NCBI GenBank assembly: GCA_017857175.1
Contig: JAFMDS010000006.1
Coordinates: 1 to 64,000, forward strand
Reading direction: 5' to 3'
From: Candidatus Nanopelagicales bacterium
Lineage (GTDB): Bacteria > Actinomycetota > Actinomycetes > S36-B12
DNA length: 64,000 bases
Shown: positions 12,441-57,371 of the stretch, in pieces
Layout of the letters: every line of letters begins with the position of its first letter
Numbering within the stretch: the stretch's first letter is position 1
Made by a program: the position numbers and the translations under genes
Notes under the pieces: model-generated
The model's input: only the letters and a program-made list of their open reading frames with translations
What the model was told of the DNA's origin: nothing
Databases searched by the model: none

Positions 12441-13496
12441 GTGGATCTTGTATCCATGACTCCGAAAATGCGCATGGTTCAACATGCATTAGGTGCAAAA
12501 GACCATGGCGAGCACATTGATAAGGCCACGGCAGAATTCGCGAGCCTTGTTAGGCGCCTTGGGTTCTATCCGCGTGACAGCGTTCTTTTCACATGGTTTC
12601 GATCTGGAACAGAGGTACTCGTGCAACGTGTTGATCTGGGCGTTGACGTTGACAAGCACTTTAACCGCTGGCTTGAGTCCGTGTTCGCCCCTGCGAAGGC
12701 CTACGAGCCCCAAGAGGTGCGTGTGTCAATTGTGTGTTCGGAGTCCTGGTTCAACAAGGTGGCATTAATTCAGATGCTGGAGGCTTGCCTTCGTGAGAAA
12801 GGGATATTCGTCTCAGCCGCATCTTCAGTGTGTGCCCTCGAGCTGGCTAATGACTCAGTAGCACATGGAGTGTGGACCACCGAATGTTCACAATGTTGTG
12901 ACGACTGGCATGTGGCCACCGAATTCGCCAACGACGGAGCCAACATATTGAGATCTAGAGAGGAACTGAGAGAACTCTTCTGCTATCAGGTATCAATGGC
13001 AATCAATCCCGAGTTCATTAAAAAGGTCATGAGAGTCGATGTGGCGGCTAAGGACCGTTGGAGAACGAATCAGTTGCGCTTGATTGTGAAATGCTTTCAA
13101 GGCGAGGCTGAGACCACTGATCTCATGGCTGCGCGGATGGCATACGCATTGAGTGATGTTCGTGTCCGAGACACAATCTTGTGGGATATGGCTTCGGGGT
13201 GCCTCGAGTCTCAAATTGTGTTTGAGTGTTTGATGGGCCTGATCCCGAGATTAACGGGGGCGTGGGTAGCGGGATTCATCTGTGTGGCCGCCGTTGCTGC
13301 GTGGTTGCAGGGCAATGGCGCCACAGCAAATATGTGCATTGACCGCGCTTTGGCTGAGGCGCCGGAGAACAATCTGGCTAATCTGTTGCGAGTGTCCTTG
13401 AACAACGGAATATCTCCACAATTATGGGTGGAAAGTGTGCTGGAACTCTCTCGTGAGGAGTGCCGTTACGGGGTACCGCTAGCGCAAATTCCCTAG
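12441..13496 (+). CDS. DUF4192-like protein
   Basis: ASLVRRLGFYPRDSVLFTWFRSGTEVLVQRVDLG start resembles DUF4192; start may be ATG 12456. Confidence 0.55.
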   Translation: MDLVSMTPKMRMVQHALGAKDHGEHIDKATAEFASLVRRLGFYPRDSVLFTWFRSGTEVLVQRVDLGVDVDKHFNRWLESVFAPAKAYEPQEVRVSIVCSESWFNKVALIQMLEACLREKGIFVSAASSVCALELANDSVAHGVWTTECSQCCDDWHVATEFANDGANILRSREELRELFCYQVSMAINPEFIKKVMRVDVAAKDRWRTNQLRLIVKCFQGEAETTDLMAARMAYALSDVRVRDTILWDMASGCLESQIVFECLMGLIPRLTGAWVAGFICVAAVAAWLQGNGATANMCIDRALAEAPENNLANLLRVSLNNGISPQLWVESVLELSREECRYGVPLAQIP

Positions 13497-13513: not shown

Positions 13514-13625
13514 TCGGTCAAGAGATCAGCATCAAGCCCCGGCTCGCTGATCGGCAACCCTCCAACCGCGGTGGGGTGCTCCCGGTGGAGACCAGGTCCT
13601 ATCTCGGTAGGGCAAGCGCGGGTCT
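13514..13625 (+). ncRNA. SAM-IV riboswitch
   Basis: GGTCAAGAGATCAGCATCAAGCCCCGGCTCGCTGATCGGCAACCCTCCAACCGCGGTGGGGTGCTCCCGGTGGAGACCAGG...GGCAAGCGCGGGTC matches the actinobacterial SAM-IV core; upstream of metY-metX. Confidence 0.9.
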
Positions 13626-13645
13626 TGCACAGGGCAAGGCCCCAA

Positions 13646-13666
13646 ATGACAAAAGGGCTGCCATGA
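13646..13666 (+). CDS. Micro-ORF MTKGLP overlapping the next micro-ORF by ATGA
   Basis: ATGACAAAAGGGCTGCCATGA directly 3' of riboswitch. Confidence 0.3.
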   Translation: MTKGLP

Positions 13667-13698
13667 AAATCTGCTGTTGTACCCGCACCGTCTCCTGA
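13663..13698 (+). CDS. Putative polycysteine leader peptide MKICCCTRTVS
   Basis: ATGAAAATCTGCTGTTGTACCCGCACCGTCTCCTGA between SAM-IV aptamer and metY; AGGG Shine-Dalgarno-like element upstream. Confidence 0.55.
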   Translation: MKICCCTRTVS

Positions 13699-13831
13699 GT
13701 GTTGTTCGCAGGCTCGGGCGATAAAGGTGCGTTGTGATGCGAATCAAAAATCTTGAACAACTGTTTTTACATTAAACGTTTTAACTTAAATTGGTGCTTT
13801 GTGGCACCTTCATTGAATCTGGAGAAAAATC

Positions 13832-15145
13832 ATGAGTGAAACTTGGTCGTTCGAAACAAAGCAAATCCACGCGGGCCAGACAGCCGATGAATCCACGGGC
13901 GCACGCGCCTTGCCGATTTATCAGACCACCTCCTATGTCTTCAAGGACACGGAACATGCTGCAAACCTGTTTGCTCTCAAAGAATTGGGAAACATCTACA
14001 CGCGAATAATGAATCCGACACAAGCAGCGGTCGAGGACCGCATTGCTGCCCTCGAAGGTGGCGTGGGCGCGCTGCTGGTCGCGAGTGGTCAGGCAGCTGA
14101 GACGCTGGCAATTTTGAATATCGCTGAAGCTGGAGATCACGTTGTTTCCAGCCCAAGTTTGTACGGGGGAACCTACAACCTGTTCCATTACACGCTGCCA
14201 AAGCTTGGCATTGAGGTTAGTTTCGTGGAGAACCCTGATGATCTGGATTCATGGCGGGCAGCAATTAAGCCCAACACCAAGGCTTTTTACGGTGAATCAC
14301 TGTCGAACCCACGTAATGATGTACTCGATATTGAAGGCGTTGCGGGCGTAGCACATGAATTTGGAGTCCCTTTGATCGTGGATAACACGGTTGCCACCCC
14401 TTATCTCATTCGCCCATTTGAGTTCGGCGCTGACGTAGTTGTCCATTCCGCGACCAAATACCTTGGCGGCCACGGAACGGCGGTTGCAGGAGCAATCGTC
14501 GACGCAGGAACTTTCGATTACGCCAAATATCCTGAGCGGTTCCCCAACTACAATCAGCCCGACCCCAGCTACCACGGGCTTGTTTACGCACGCGACCTCG
14601 GTGTTGGCGGAGCCTTCGGTGTGAACCTTGCGTTCATTCTGAAAGCCCGTGTGCAATTGCTGCGCGACCTAGGTGCGGCCGTTTCACCATTTAACGCATT
14701 CCTGATAGCACAAGGGATAGAAACCTTGTCGTTGCGCGTGGCGCGTCACACCGAAAATGCGCTAGCGGTTGCTCGCTGGCTTGACAACCAAGATGGTGTC
14801 ATTTCGGTCAACTATGCAGGCCTTGAGAGCAGTCCTTGGTACGCGAATGGTCAGAAATATGCACCTCTCGGCACAGGTGGCGTACTGAGTTTCGAAATCA
14901 AGGGTGGAATTGATGCGGGTCGAAAGTTTGTTGAAGGCTTGCAGCTTCACAGTCATGTGGCCAATATCGGTGACGTTCGGTCACTGGTTATTCATCCTGC
15001 ATCGACCACTCACTCACAACTCACACCGGAAGAACAACTGGCTTCTGGTGTTACGCCAGGACTGGTGCGGCTAGCAGTTGGACTTGAAGCCCTGCCCGAT
15101 ATTTTGGCGGACCTCGAGGTCGGCTTCGCTGCAGCTGGGCAATAG
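13832..15145 (+). CDS. metY: O-acetylhomoserine aminocarboxypropyltransferase/sulfhydrylase
   Basis: MSETWSFETKQIHAGQTADESTGARALPIYQTTSYVF...GNIYTRIMNPTQAAVEDRIAALEGG...SATKYLGGHGTAVAG. Confidence 0.95.
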   Translation: MSETWSFETKQIHAGQTADESTGARALPIYQTTSYVFKDTEHAANLFALKELGNIYTRIMNPTQAAVEDRIAALEGGVGALLVASGQAAETLAILNIAEAGDHVVSSPSLYGGTYNLFHYTLPKLGIEVSFVENPDDLDSWRAAIKPNTKAFYGESLSNPRNDVLDIEGVAGVAHEFGVPLIVDNTVATPYLIRPFEFGADVVVHSATKYLGGHGTAVAGAIVDAGTFDYAKYPERFPNYNQPDPSYHGLVYARDLGVGGAFGVNLAFILKARVQLLRDLGAAVSPFNAFLIAQGIETLSLRVARHTENALAVARWLDNQDGVISVNYAGLESSPWYANGQKYAPLGTGGVLSFEIKGGIDAGRKFVEGLQLHSHVANIGDVRSLVIHPASTTHSQLTPEEQLASGVTPGLVRLAVGLEALPDILADLEVGFAAAGQ

Positions 15146-15156
15146 GAACTCTTTTA

Positions 15157-16329
15157 ATGTCTGCATACGGCCCACTTTCCTATGAAGGTCTCCCTCCCGC
15201 CAGCGCTGCCTGGCGGGAGGGGGATCCTCTTGGGCGTCGTCAATTTATAACCATTGAGGGCTTTGTCACCGAAAGCCAATTCCGATTCCCTGAGGTCCGC
15301 ATTGCCTATGAAACCTGGGGTGCTTTGAATGACACGGGCACAAACGCGATTTATATCTGCCATGCGCTGACGGGTGATTCCCATGTTTCAGGTGAGGCAG
15401 GTCCGGGGCATGTAACGGCAGGCTGGTGGGATGGTCTGATTGGGCCCGGAAAAGCAATAGACACTAATGAGTATTTTGTTGTTTGTGCCAATGTTCTCGG
15501 TGGTGCGCAGGGTACAACTGGGCCTTCATCTTTGGACCCTGAAGGTGTGCCGTGGGGCAGTAGATTCCCAACGATAACTATCACTGACATGGTGGAAATT
15601 GAGCACGAGCTCATGGCTACCTTGGGAATACAACGATGGCAATTGATGCTTGGACCCTCCCTTGGAGGTATGCGAGTACTTGAATGGATGATTCGGTATC
15701 CAGATGCCGTCTGTGGTGGTTTGGTGTTGGGTTCGACAGCAGCTGTTTCCGCGGATCAGATTGGCATTCATGCGACTCAAATCATGGCGATCGAATCAGA
15801 CGCTGAATTTAATGGCGGTGACTATTACGAATCAGATTTAGGCCCGGTAGTGGGCATGGGACTGGCCCGCCGCATTGCACATCTGACATATCGAAGTGAG
15901 ACAGAGTTAGATCTGCGTTTTGGCCGAAGCCCTCAAGGGTCAGAGGACCCATATGGCGGGGGCCGTTTTGCGGTCGAGTCATACCTCGATCATCATGCAG
16001 ACAAGTTGAATAGGCGCTTTGACGCCAACACATACATAGCGCTAACTCGTGCCATGAGTCTTTTCGATCTTGGAAGAAATCGTGGCGGTGTGGCGAGTGC
16101 TCTAGGGCGGATTACGCAACCTCTCACGGTGGTAGGAATTGACTCGGACAGGCTCTTTCCCATCAGACTTCAGCAGGAGATCGTCGAGCTTGCACCCGGG
16201 GCTGATGAACTGCATATATTGACATCACCATACGGGCATGATGGTTTCCTGGTCGAGAATGAGCAAGTTGGTGGCTTCGTTCGTCATGCGCTCGAACGAG
16301 TAAAGGAATCGAACTGCACTAGTACTTGA
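15157..16329 (+). CDS. metX: Homoserine O-acetyltransferase
   Basis: VRIAYETWGALNDTGTNAIYICHALTGDSHVSG...MLGPSLGGMRVLEWMIRYPDAV; alpha/beta hydrolase MetX. Confidence 0.95.
   Translation: MSAYGPLSYEGLPPASAAWREGDPLGRRQFITIEGFVTESQFRFPEVRIAYETWGALNDTGTNAIYICHALTGDSHVSGEAGPGHVTAGWWDGLIGPGKAIDTNEYFVVCANVLGGAQGTTGPSSLDPEGVPWGSRFPTITITDMVEIEHELMATLGIQRWQLMLGPSLGGMRVLEWMIRYPDAVCGGLVLGSTAAVSADQIGIHATQIMAIESDAEFNGGDYYESDLGPVVGMGLARRIAHLTYRSETELDLRFGRSPQGSEDPYGGGRFAVESYLDHHADKLNRRFDANTYIALTRAMSLFDLGRNRGGVASALGRITQPLTVVGIDSDRLFPIRLQQEIVELAPGADELHILTSPYGHDGFLVENEQVGGFVRHALERVKESNCTST
15192..15221. repeat. Perfect 12-bp inverted repeat inside the 5' coding region of metX
   Basis: CCCTCCCGCCAG-CGCTGC-CTGGCGGGAGGG. 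Confidence 0.9.
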
Positions 16330-55913: not shown

Positions 55914-56362
55914 TCCTGATAAGGGTCAATTCCGAGCGCCGTTTTGTCTTCATCGGTCAATGGTCCAACAGGCTCATCAAATTGGTCAAAGTTTGGATCT
56001 GCACGTTGTTCGTTGGTCTCATCATCGAGATACTCATCTGATTCAACAATATGCATGGCGGCGCTTTCGGCCGGAATGTACGGCGAGGGGTTCAAGCCAC
56101 CCGCGTGCATTGGGTCATCACTTGAGTCTTCAGCATCCTCCATGGCCAAGGTTTCTTCCGTATCCTCCAACGGATACGACAACCCATCAAGTGATCCCTC
56201 ACCGCCATACTCCCCGGATGTTCCTCGAATGGCGTTCCGGGCAGCTTCTGCCTCCATGATCATGGTAAGTCGATCCGCTTGATCTGCGGAGTCACCGCTC
56301 GGATCGGTCATATCAACAGTTGATTGGGCGATTTGCGCAGGATCAATTTCCTCATGGCTCAT
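55910..56362 (-). CDS. DUF5709-like acidic protein
   Basis: YIPAESAAMHIVESDEYLDDETNEQRADPNFDQ. Confidence 0.65.
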   Translation of the reverse strand: MSHEEIDPAQIAQSTVDMTDPSGDSADQADRLTMIMEAEAARNAIRGTSGEYGGEGSLDGLSYPLEDTEETLAMEDAEDSSDDPMHAGGLNPSPYIPAESAAMHIVESDEYLDDETNEQRADPNFDQFDEPVGPLTDEDKTALGIDPYQD

Positions 56363-56429
56363 GACAAGAATCTACTCTGCATTTGCCTGTCATGTGACCT
56401 GGGAAAATATTCCATGCCAGACTAGTCAC

Positions 56430-57371
56430 ATGACCGCTTTTGCTGAGGATCTTGCAACACTCGACCTGCTCACCCAACTGGAACCCGTGGTTGAACAAGA
56501 ACTCAATCGACACATCACACAAGCGAAAGAATGGTTTCCCCACGATTACGTTCCATGGGACGAGGCAACAAACTTCGCTCACCTCGGTGGTGAAGACTGG
56601 ACTCCGGAACAACGCCGCTTTAGTGAGGCTGCTCGGACGAGTCTCATAATTAATCTGCTGACCGAGGACAACCTTCCCAGTTACCACCATGAGATCGCCA
56701 CCATATTTGGGCGCGATGGCGCATGGGGTGAATGGGTTGGGCGTTGGACCGCTGAAGAAGGACGGCATGGCACCGCCATCAGGGACTACTTAGTCGTCAC
56801 ACGCGCTGTCGACCCTGTTGCATTGGAGCGCGCTCGCATGGTGCATATGCAGGAAGGGTTCCAGGCAATACACCCGGGGATTTTGGCAGGCTTGTCCTAC
56901 GTCTCATTCCAAGAATTAGCCACTCGCGTCTCGCATCGCAACACGGGCGTGGCAACAGGAGACCCCATCGCTGAAGCATTGCTTCAGCGCATTGCTCTAG
57001 ATGAGAATTTGCACATGATTTTCTATCGAAACCTCCTGGCTGCGGCATTGGAGATTGCTCCGGACCCAACGATGGTTGCGATCTTGAAGAGTGTTCGAGA
57101 TTTCGCCATGCCTGGTCACGGGATCGACGGATTCCAGCGCAAGGCAGTCGAGATCGCAGTTGCTGGAATCTATGACCTAAAACAGCACCGTGACGAGGTC
57201 CTCATGCCCGTGTTGCGCAAGTGGAAGATCTTCGACCGTAATGATTTCGGTGCAGAGGGAAATGCGGCCAGAGAAGAACTGGCGGAAATTCTCGCTGATA
57301 TGGATGTCAACGTGAATCGGTTCGAAGAGCGACGCGAGGCCTTGAAAGCACGACTGAGTTCCAGAGACTGA
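56430..57371 (+). CDS. Acyl-ACP desaturase
   Basis: FFPHDYVPW-like WFPHDYVPWDEATNF...EARTSLIINLLTEDNLPSYHHEI...WTAEEGRHGTAIRDYL...DENLHMIFYRNLL diiron motifs. Confidence 0.92.
   Translation: MTAFAEDLATLDLLTQLEPVVEQELNRHITQAKEWFPHDYVPWDEATNFAHLGGEDWTPEQRRFSEAARTSLIINLLTEDNLPSYHHEIATIFGRDGAWGEWVGRWTAEEGRHGTAIRDYLVVTRAVDPVALERARMVHMQEGFQAIHPGILAGLSYVSFQELATRVSHRNTGVATGDPIAEALLQRIALDENLHMIFYRNLLAAALEIAPDPTMVAILKSVRDFAMPGHGIDGFQRKAVEIAVAGIYDLKQHRDEVLMPVLRKWKIFDRNDFGAEGNAAREELAEILADMDVNVNRFEERREALKARLSSRD

Follow-up and report, generated by a model that had tools for sequence, protein, structure and literature searches.

A SAM-IV aptamer followed by a conserved cysteine-run upstream ORF in the metY leader of Nanopelagicales and related Actinobacteria: two sensors probably acting in series

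The studied region lies in a 64,000-nt stretch of DNA (further referred to as the window) from a Candidatus Nanopelagicales bacterium, and comprises two genes of sulfur metabolism, metY and metX, with a long leader preceding metY (Table 1). Given the spacing of 11 nt, the two genes are probably co-transcribed; a gene encoding a DUF4192 protein (12441–13496) is located immediately upstream of the leader. The MetY protein is 87–90% identical to its closest named relatives, which are metagenome bins called Candidatus Nanopelagicales. A preliminary description of the locus had placed a SAM-IV aptamer upstream of metY, and this assignment is borne out, with the match spanning all model positions (1–116) at 96.6 bits, where the gathering threshold is 38, and with metY, followed by metX, identified by profile searches.

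Table 1. Elements of the metY leader and operon in the window (positions are counted from the first nucleotide of the window).
Feature	Position	Strand	Evidence or remark
SAM-IV riboswitch aptamer (RF00634)	13516–13624	+	cmscan, 96.6 bits, E 2.3e-16, full length
CGCGG aptamer tail	13617–13621	+	sequence and Rfam alignment
Hairpin P5, GGGUCUUGC-ACAGG-GCAAGGCCC	13620–13642	+	directly 3′ of the aptamer; covariation, 21 distinct relatives
Switch strand GCAAGGCCCC (3′ arm of P5)	13634–13643	+	alternative partner: uORF Shine-Dalgarno arm
uORF Shine-Dalgarno arm AGGGCUGCC	13654–13662	+	sequence; GAGG/GGAGG in the same place in nearly all relatives
Cys-run uORF MKICCCTRTVS*, 11 codons and stop	13663–13698	+	conserved start, Cys run and frame; enriched compared to shuffles
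Three Cys codons TGC TGT TGT	13672–13680	+	
Leader from uORF stop to metY (133 nt)	13699–13831	+	metY Shine-Dalgarno GGAGA at 13821–13825
metY, bifunctional O-acetylhomoserine/O-acetylserine sulfhydrylase	13832–15145	+	NF005872, 795.8 bits (cut-off 703)
metX, homoserine O-acetyltransferase	15157–16329	+	NF047917, 497.1 bits (cut-off 475)

The short ORF with three consecutive Cys codons and an AGGG Shine-Dalgarno-like sequence, reported in the same description, is likewise present (ATG AAA ATC TGC TGT TGT ACC CGC ACC GTC TCC TGA, with AAAAGGG 5′ of it; below, uORF). A further ORF noted there, MTKGLP (ATGACAAAAGGGCTGCCATGA, 13646–13666), does overlap the uORF by ATGA, but its ATG is missing in most congeners, and we reject it as a functional second ORF. 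By itself, a mini-ORF with three adjacent Cys codons is unremarkable: three other such loci occur within the window, all of them overlapping long frames or genes in another frame or on the other strand, and the three-codon pattern alone is too common for genome-wide inference. It is the position and the conservation of the uORF that are remarkable. All ten SAM-IV/metY leaders recovered from the window's genus contain a Cys-run uORF starting 37–38 nt past the aptamer, with the peptides MKICCCTRTVS, MHCCCTRTST, MNCCYC, MCCLPCCC, MCCLSCCCQSTST, MCCSICCC, MKCCHRLSI, MHSCCTSIYI, MHCCCTRTFS, and MHCCCTSIYT, so that the flanking codons differ and the Cys run is retained. Conservation of the start, Cys run and frame in relatives, which the preliminary description had set as its test, thus holds throughout these genus leaders, and is also observed in several more genera of the family, in two other families assigned to the same order, and in at least six genera of Mycobacteriaceae.

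Among 69 distinct long SAM-IV/metY leaders (more than 110 nt), a uORF with two or more adjacent Cys codons is present in 42, compared to a mean of 0.92 and a maximum of 5 in dinucleotide shuffles, and one with three or more consecutive Cys codons in 30, compared to 0.00 in shuffles; since the leaders are related, these counts do not represent independent events. Cys-run uORFs are found in none of 27 SAM-IV/metK leaders and none of 45 short SAM-IV/metY leaders. In the short leaders lacking the uORF, the start of metY itself is 26–97 nt past the aptamer tail, and metK leaders share this build. The Cys codons of 56 distinct uORFs are 154 TGT and 17 TGC, versus 50 TGT and 93 TGC in the long frames of the window; a slow codon, a pairing constraint, and avoidance of G+C are candidate causes of this bias.

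In other genera of the family, the uORFs encode MSCCRMPLS, MCCCRMPI, MCCCSCS, MCCCCRMTRR, MRCCCRMKRG and similar peptides, and L131 and L134, two genomes from other families that are assigned to this order, have such uORFs too. Scanning of 251 Mycobacteriaceae genomes for the SAM-IV tail followed, after 35–65 nt, by ATG and three Cys codons yielded matches in 17 genomes from five genera, and the reversed-pattern control yielded none; in all 17 the uORF lies between a SAM-IV core and metY, and the peptides include MCCCRR, MCCCHE, and MCCCLE. A separate route led to Rhodococcoides kyotonense (MCCCPDRPRP...) and Mycolicibacterium wolinskyi (MCCCP). On a MetY tree of 126 loci the presence of the uORF requires at least 11 changes, indicating repeated gains or losses, and at 26 of these loci the leader is long and lacks a CC run, so the cysteine sensing, if real, has been lost or is degenerate in places.

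Several other features of these leaders were observed. In several genera of the family (e.g., L177, L014, L036, L131) the Cys codons are followed by the nucleotide motif TGTTGTCGAATG (peptide CCRM), which survives codon insertion before it (CCRRM, CCLRM) and is missing in the window's genus. One subclade of the genus (L005, L009, and in part L007) has a second short ORF 100–170 nt past the aptamer (MRPTNNPHTQF / MRPTNEPNTQL) that ends at the metY Shine-Dalgarno sequence, and this is inconsistent in the rest of the genus. Many relatives (e.g., L164, L171, L184) have a second SAM-IV aptamer directly before metK, with the gene start 22–49 nt past the tail and no uORF, and in the window's genome the metY copy is the only one (13516–13624, sole in the 2.0 Mb actinobacterial assembly). 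Weaker and longer SAM-IV-like elements (52–62 bits) were found in three genomes of the genus (L011:1501–1637, L012:1501–1635, and L013:419–555 on the minus strand) upstream of a gene family MTQQKNSEFEREPNVRLSPRYFEAVAYASGLHAGQ..., which is neither metY nor metK and for which a 60-residue piece yielded no Pfam match. Finally, the window contains a match to Rfam ASdes, an M. tuberculosis sRNA (56757–56824, minus strand, 45.9 bits with a threshold of 40), situated antisense inside a 336-aa frame (56361–57371), and hence possibly reflecting only coding-sequence similarity.

Covariation supports the hairpin P5: across 21 distinct relatives 92.1% of cells are paired and four pairs are changed on both sides, with the covariation score of 0.238 compared to 0.116 for shuffled data (0 of 500 shuffles as high) and a slid maximum of 0.163. 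The CGCGG tail is presumably, from what is known of the family, the SAM-IV pseudoknot strand, and its last two G double as the base of P5, forming the lowest G–C pairs. The 3′ arm of P5 has a possible alternative partner in the window's family, namely the uORF Shine-Dalgarno arm. For 33 leaders, the mean duplex energy of the switch strand with its own Shine-Dalgarno arm is –10.25 kcal/mol, compared to –9.29 for swapped partners and –7.55 for a shuffled arm; 0 of 5000 permutations were as low as the own-partner mean, by a statistic that ignores shared ancestry. Compensated changes in the arms are seen in L010 (AAGGCCC/GGGCCUU) and in L131 and L134 (CGUCC/GGACG). Both P5, and the switch strand with the Shine-Dalgarno arm, covary, as observed directly, like the presence, conservation and gene specificity of the elements themselves. 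When the aptamer tail was made unavailable in 60 leaders, the modelled openness of the uORF Shine-Dalgarno sequence decreased from 0.45 to 0.32 (lower in 32 leaders, higher in nine).

The P5 covariation and the fit of the switch strand point structurally to an expression platform that overlaps the ribosome-binding site of the uORF, and the simplest reading of these data would be a translational OFF switch acting on the uORF. The preliminary description had overlooked this likely key feature, in which the platform would lie on the Shine-Dalgarno sequence of the uORF and not on that of metY, so that the two sensors probably act in series. In Mycobacteriaceae the Shine-Dalgarno sequence of the uORF is surrounded by another local element, and the gating of the uORF by SAM is therefore supported mainly in the window's family.

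We propose, with a probability of roughly 0.6, that the metY leader comprises two sensors in series, SAM-IV gating a cysteine-sensing uORF. Most likely, the riboswitch gates translation of the uORF, and the ribosome on the uORF senses Cys-tRNA. The aptamer would then control translation of the 11-residue uORF and not metY directly. Without SAM, P5 would capture the GCAAGGCCCC strand, leaving the uORF Shine-Dalgarno sequence free; with SAM, the aptamer would take up the CGCGG tail, that is, the base of P5, and the freed strand would cover the uORF Shine-Dalgarno sequence. On a translated uORF, the ribosome would test the supply of Cys-tRNA at the Cys codons: if cysteine is scarce, a ribosome parked there would prevent the downstream leader RNA from switching metY off, while completion of the uORF and departure of the ribosome, or no initiation at all, would let the shut-off proceed, either by covering of the metY start or by Rho-dependent termination. 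Here we infer SAM binding, translation of the uORF, stalling, and the sign of the output; the predicted outcome is high expression of metY-metX only when both SAM and cysteine are low. That control of metY is dual, by SAM and cysteine, is a well-supported reading of the sequences, and as the aptamer and the Cys-run uORF are conserved together in two groups of Actinobacteria, a single leader probably reads the supply of both. Chances are about even for the fuller statement, in which a riboswitch controls translation of an amino-acid-sensing leader peptide in place of an enzyme gene, metY would be expressed only under a joint shortage of SAM and cysteine, and this arrangement is conserved in freshwater Nanopelagicales and in relatives of Rhodococcus and Mycobacterium.

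For the step from the uORF to metY we considered several devices. The Shine-Dalgarno sequence of metY is situated 72–295 nt past the uORF stop across leaders, and ribosome footprints modelled on the uORF of 43 leaders did not open it consistently (openness of 0.40 without a ribosome and 0.45 with a ribosome stalled on the Cys codons), so opening by folding alone was rejected. No intrinsic terminator was recognised after the uORF on the plus strand of the window, and T-runs are absent in most leaders; attenuation by an intrinsic terminator was rejected as well. A conserved stem just past the Cys codons in the genus proved too weak, with three of 14 pairs covarying and 16 of 112 cells inconsistent. 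Complementarity between the Cys codons and the region where metY starts occurs in some Mycobacteriaceae; g161 and g149 genomes and two Mycolicibacterium-type leaders show it, and in L222/L223 (GACAACACAU region) it is perfect over ten pairs. No such complementarity is present in the window's family, so direct pairing was rejected as a general mechanism. The stretch past the uORF is C-rich and G-poor in GC-rich genera only, the window's own fractions being 0.16 for C and 0.24 for G. The mechanism linking the uORF to metY may differ between clades.

Other explanations of the leader have to be weighed against the serial arrangement. The controls could be independent, with SAM-IV acting by another route and the Cys uORF being a separate, ungated translational attenuator. 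The distant Shine-Dalgarno sequence of metY itself agrees with this possibility, as do the complementarity of Cys codons to the start of metY in the leaders named above and the different local element in Mycobacteriaceae, the SAM gating being argued from sequence complementarity. We nevertheless consider independence unlikely, given that the switch strand, as the 3′ arm of P5, pairs more stably with the uORF Shine-Dalgarno arm of its own leader than with those of other leaders, and that the uORF occupies the position where metY itself starts in short leaders. Still less probable is a uORF that merely shields the transcript under riboswitch control, its translation keeping Rho off and its Cys residues sensing nothing, as in the Mbox–rv1805A case. 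A riboswitch-controlled uORF combined with Rho-dependent termination has been demonstrated for the pe20 Mbox of M. tuberculosis (PMC12810186), the C-rich, G-poor stretch of GC-rich members would suit Rho, and some members of the family have few or no Cys codons at this place; however, only the Cys run persists as the flanks and the length of the uORF vary, runs of three are frequent in real leaders and absent from shuffled ones, and the window's own stretch is not C-rich.

The TGTTGTTGT stretch could also be kept as RNA, e.g., as a pairing partner, with an incidental reading frame. While the TGT preference and the exact complementarity in L222/L223 would be expected in this case, TGC and TGT are exchanged in L001, L008, and L224, in-frame additions preserve the Cys codons (MCCLPCCC, MCCCCRMTRR, MHSCCCRMPRR), a Shine-Dalgarno sequence and ATG precede them in nearly all leaders, and the window's family lacks the pairing with the metY start, making this explanation very improbable. 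As for a chance short ORF beside a riboswitch, the other CCC loci of the window, all of them overlapping genes, might lend it some credit, and the conservation and the enrichment over shuffles have already refuted it.

Each component of the serial arrangement is already known by itself: SAM-IV, the polycysteine leader ORF, and the riboswitch-controlled uORF. Like other SAM-IV elements, the one studied here is a full-length, high-scoring aptamer upstream of genes related to methionine and SAM (metY-metX), but the gated start is most likely that of the Cys-run uORF and not of an enzyme gene, unlike in the metK and short metY leaders, which have no uORF. The leader of mgtA with its peptide MgtL resembles the arrangement proposed here in combining a metal-sensing element (Mg2+) with a peptide whose proline codons act as a sensor, and differs in the ligand, amino acid, phylum, and gene.

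Leader ORFs with cysteine codons were described before mycobacterial cysteine genes (PMC1262725, Seliverstov 2005), where cys operons and cbs are listed, and no conserved structure was reported before methionine operons. Mycobacterial polycysteine ORFs, leaderless according to the title of the study (Canestrari 2020, cited in PMC13236596 and PMC9094748), share with our case, as far as these sources describe them, a short upstream Cys-run ORF, a sulfur gene, and the absence of a conserved intrinsic terminator; going by the same title, they differ in being leaderless, whereas here the uORF is inside a leader, with its own Shine-Dalgarno sequence, behind a SAM aptamer and before metY. Indeed, the uORF starts 147 nt past the start of the SAM-IV match, and a consensus scan revealed no separate promoter between the aptamer and the uORF. 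The uORF has several features of a Cys-codon attenuator: a conserved short ORF, consecutive Cys codons, a ribosome-binding site, and a downstream sulfur gene (MetY fixes sulfide).

In M. tuberculosis, riboswitches control uORFs at pe20 (Mbox/rv1805A, PMC12810186) and at metE and ppe2 (B12, PMC11260477), and the pe20 Mbox acts on its uORF translationally, together with Rho-dependent termination (PMC12810186). The order of aptamer and uORF, the regulated Shine-Dalgarno sequence of the uORF (pe20, ppe2), and the effect of its translation on downstream expression are shared with our model; no sensing codons were reported there, whereas the conserved Cys run found here would provide a second input. 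In other bacteria, tandem SAM-I/T-box(Met) leaders precede metX and metY (PMC9481103), so that the same genes have two inputs, one being SAM and the other an aminoacyl-tRNA signal. In those leaders each input is read by a structured RNA, with methionine as the amino acid, whereas our proposed second sensor is a translating ribosome responding to cysteine. Our searches of the open-access literature yielded no description of a SAM riboswitch paired with a Cys-run uORF, and an earlier mention in Canestrari 2020 or in the original SAM-IV paper is possible.

MetY makes homocysteine from sulfide, and homocysteine is converted to methionine and SAM and, via cystathionine beta-synthase (CBS), to cysteine. 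CBS is present in the window's genome, and CysK or CysE over the cut-off were found in none of 12 genomes of the genus. We rejected the uORF as a consequence of the missing CysK/CysE, as its presence does not track the absence of CysK: in the comparison of the uORF with the loss of these enzymes, genus g11 has CysK, CysE, and the uORF, and g3, g4, g6, and g14 have neither. A CysM-like protein (TIGR01139, 256–270 bits, about 316 aa) was found in most of the remaining genomes of the window's genus, so an exclusive origin of cysteine from homocysteine is not established; the search of the window's assembly itself (G000) yielded no such protein, only CBS and distant relatives. In the window's genome, no other Cys uORFs were found where the cysH region begins or in front of CBS.

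If our reading is correct, a leader that responds to both end products, methionine/SAM and cysteine, would be a compact solution to the regulation of a branch point, and a naturally occurring example of codon sensing under riboswitch control, extending the recent M. tuberculosis findings on riboswitch-controlled uORFs to one whose input is evident. The metY leaders with and without the uORF, together with the metK leaders without it, form a comparative set, and the carriers related to Rhodococcus and Mycolicibacterium make the proposal directly testable. More generally, short leader ORFs behind annotated riboswitches merit a systematic look.
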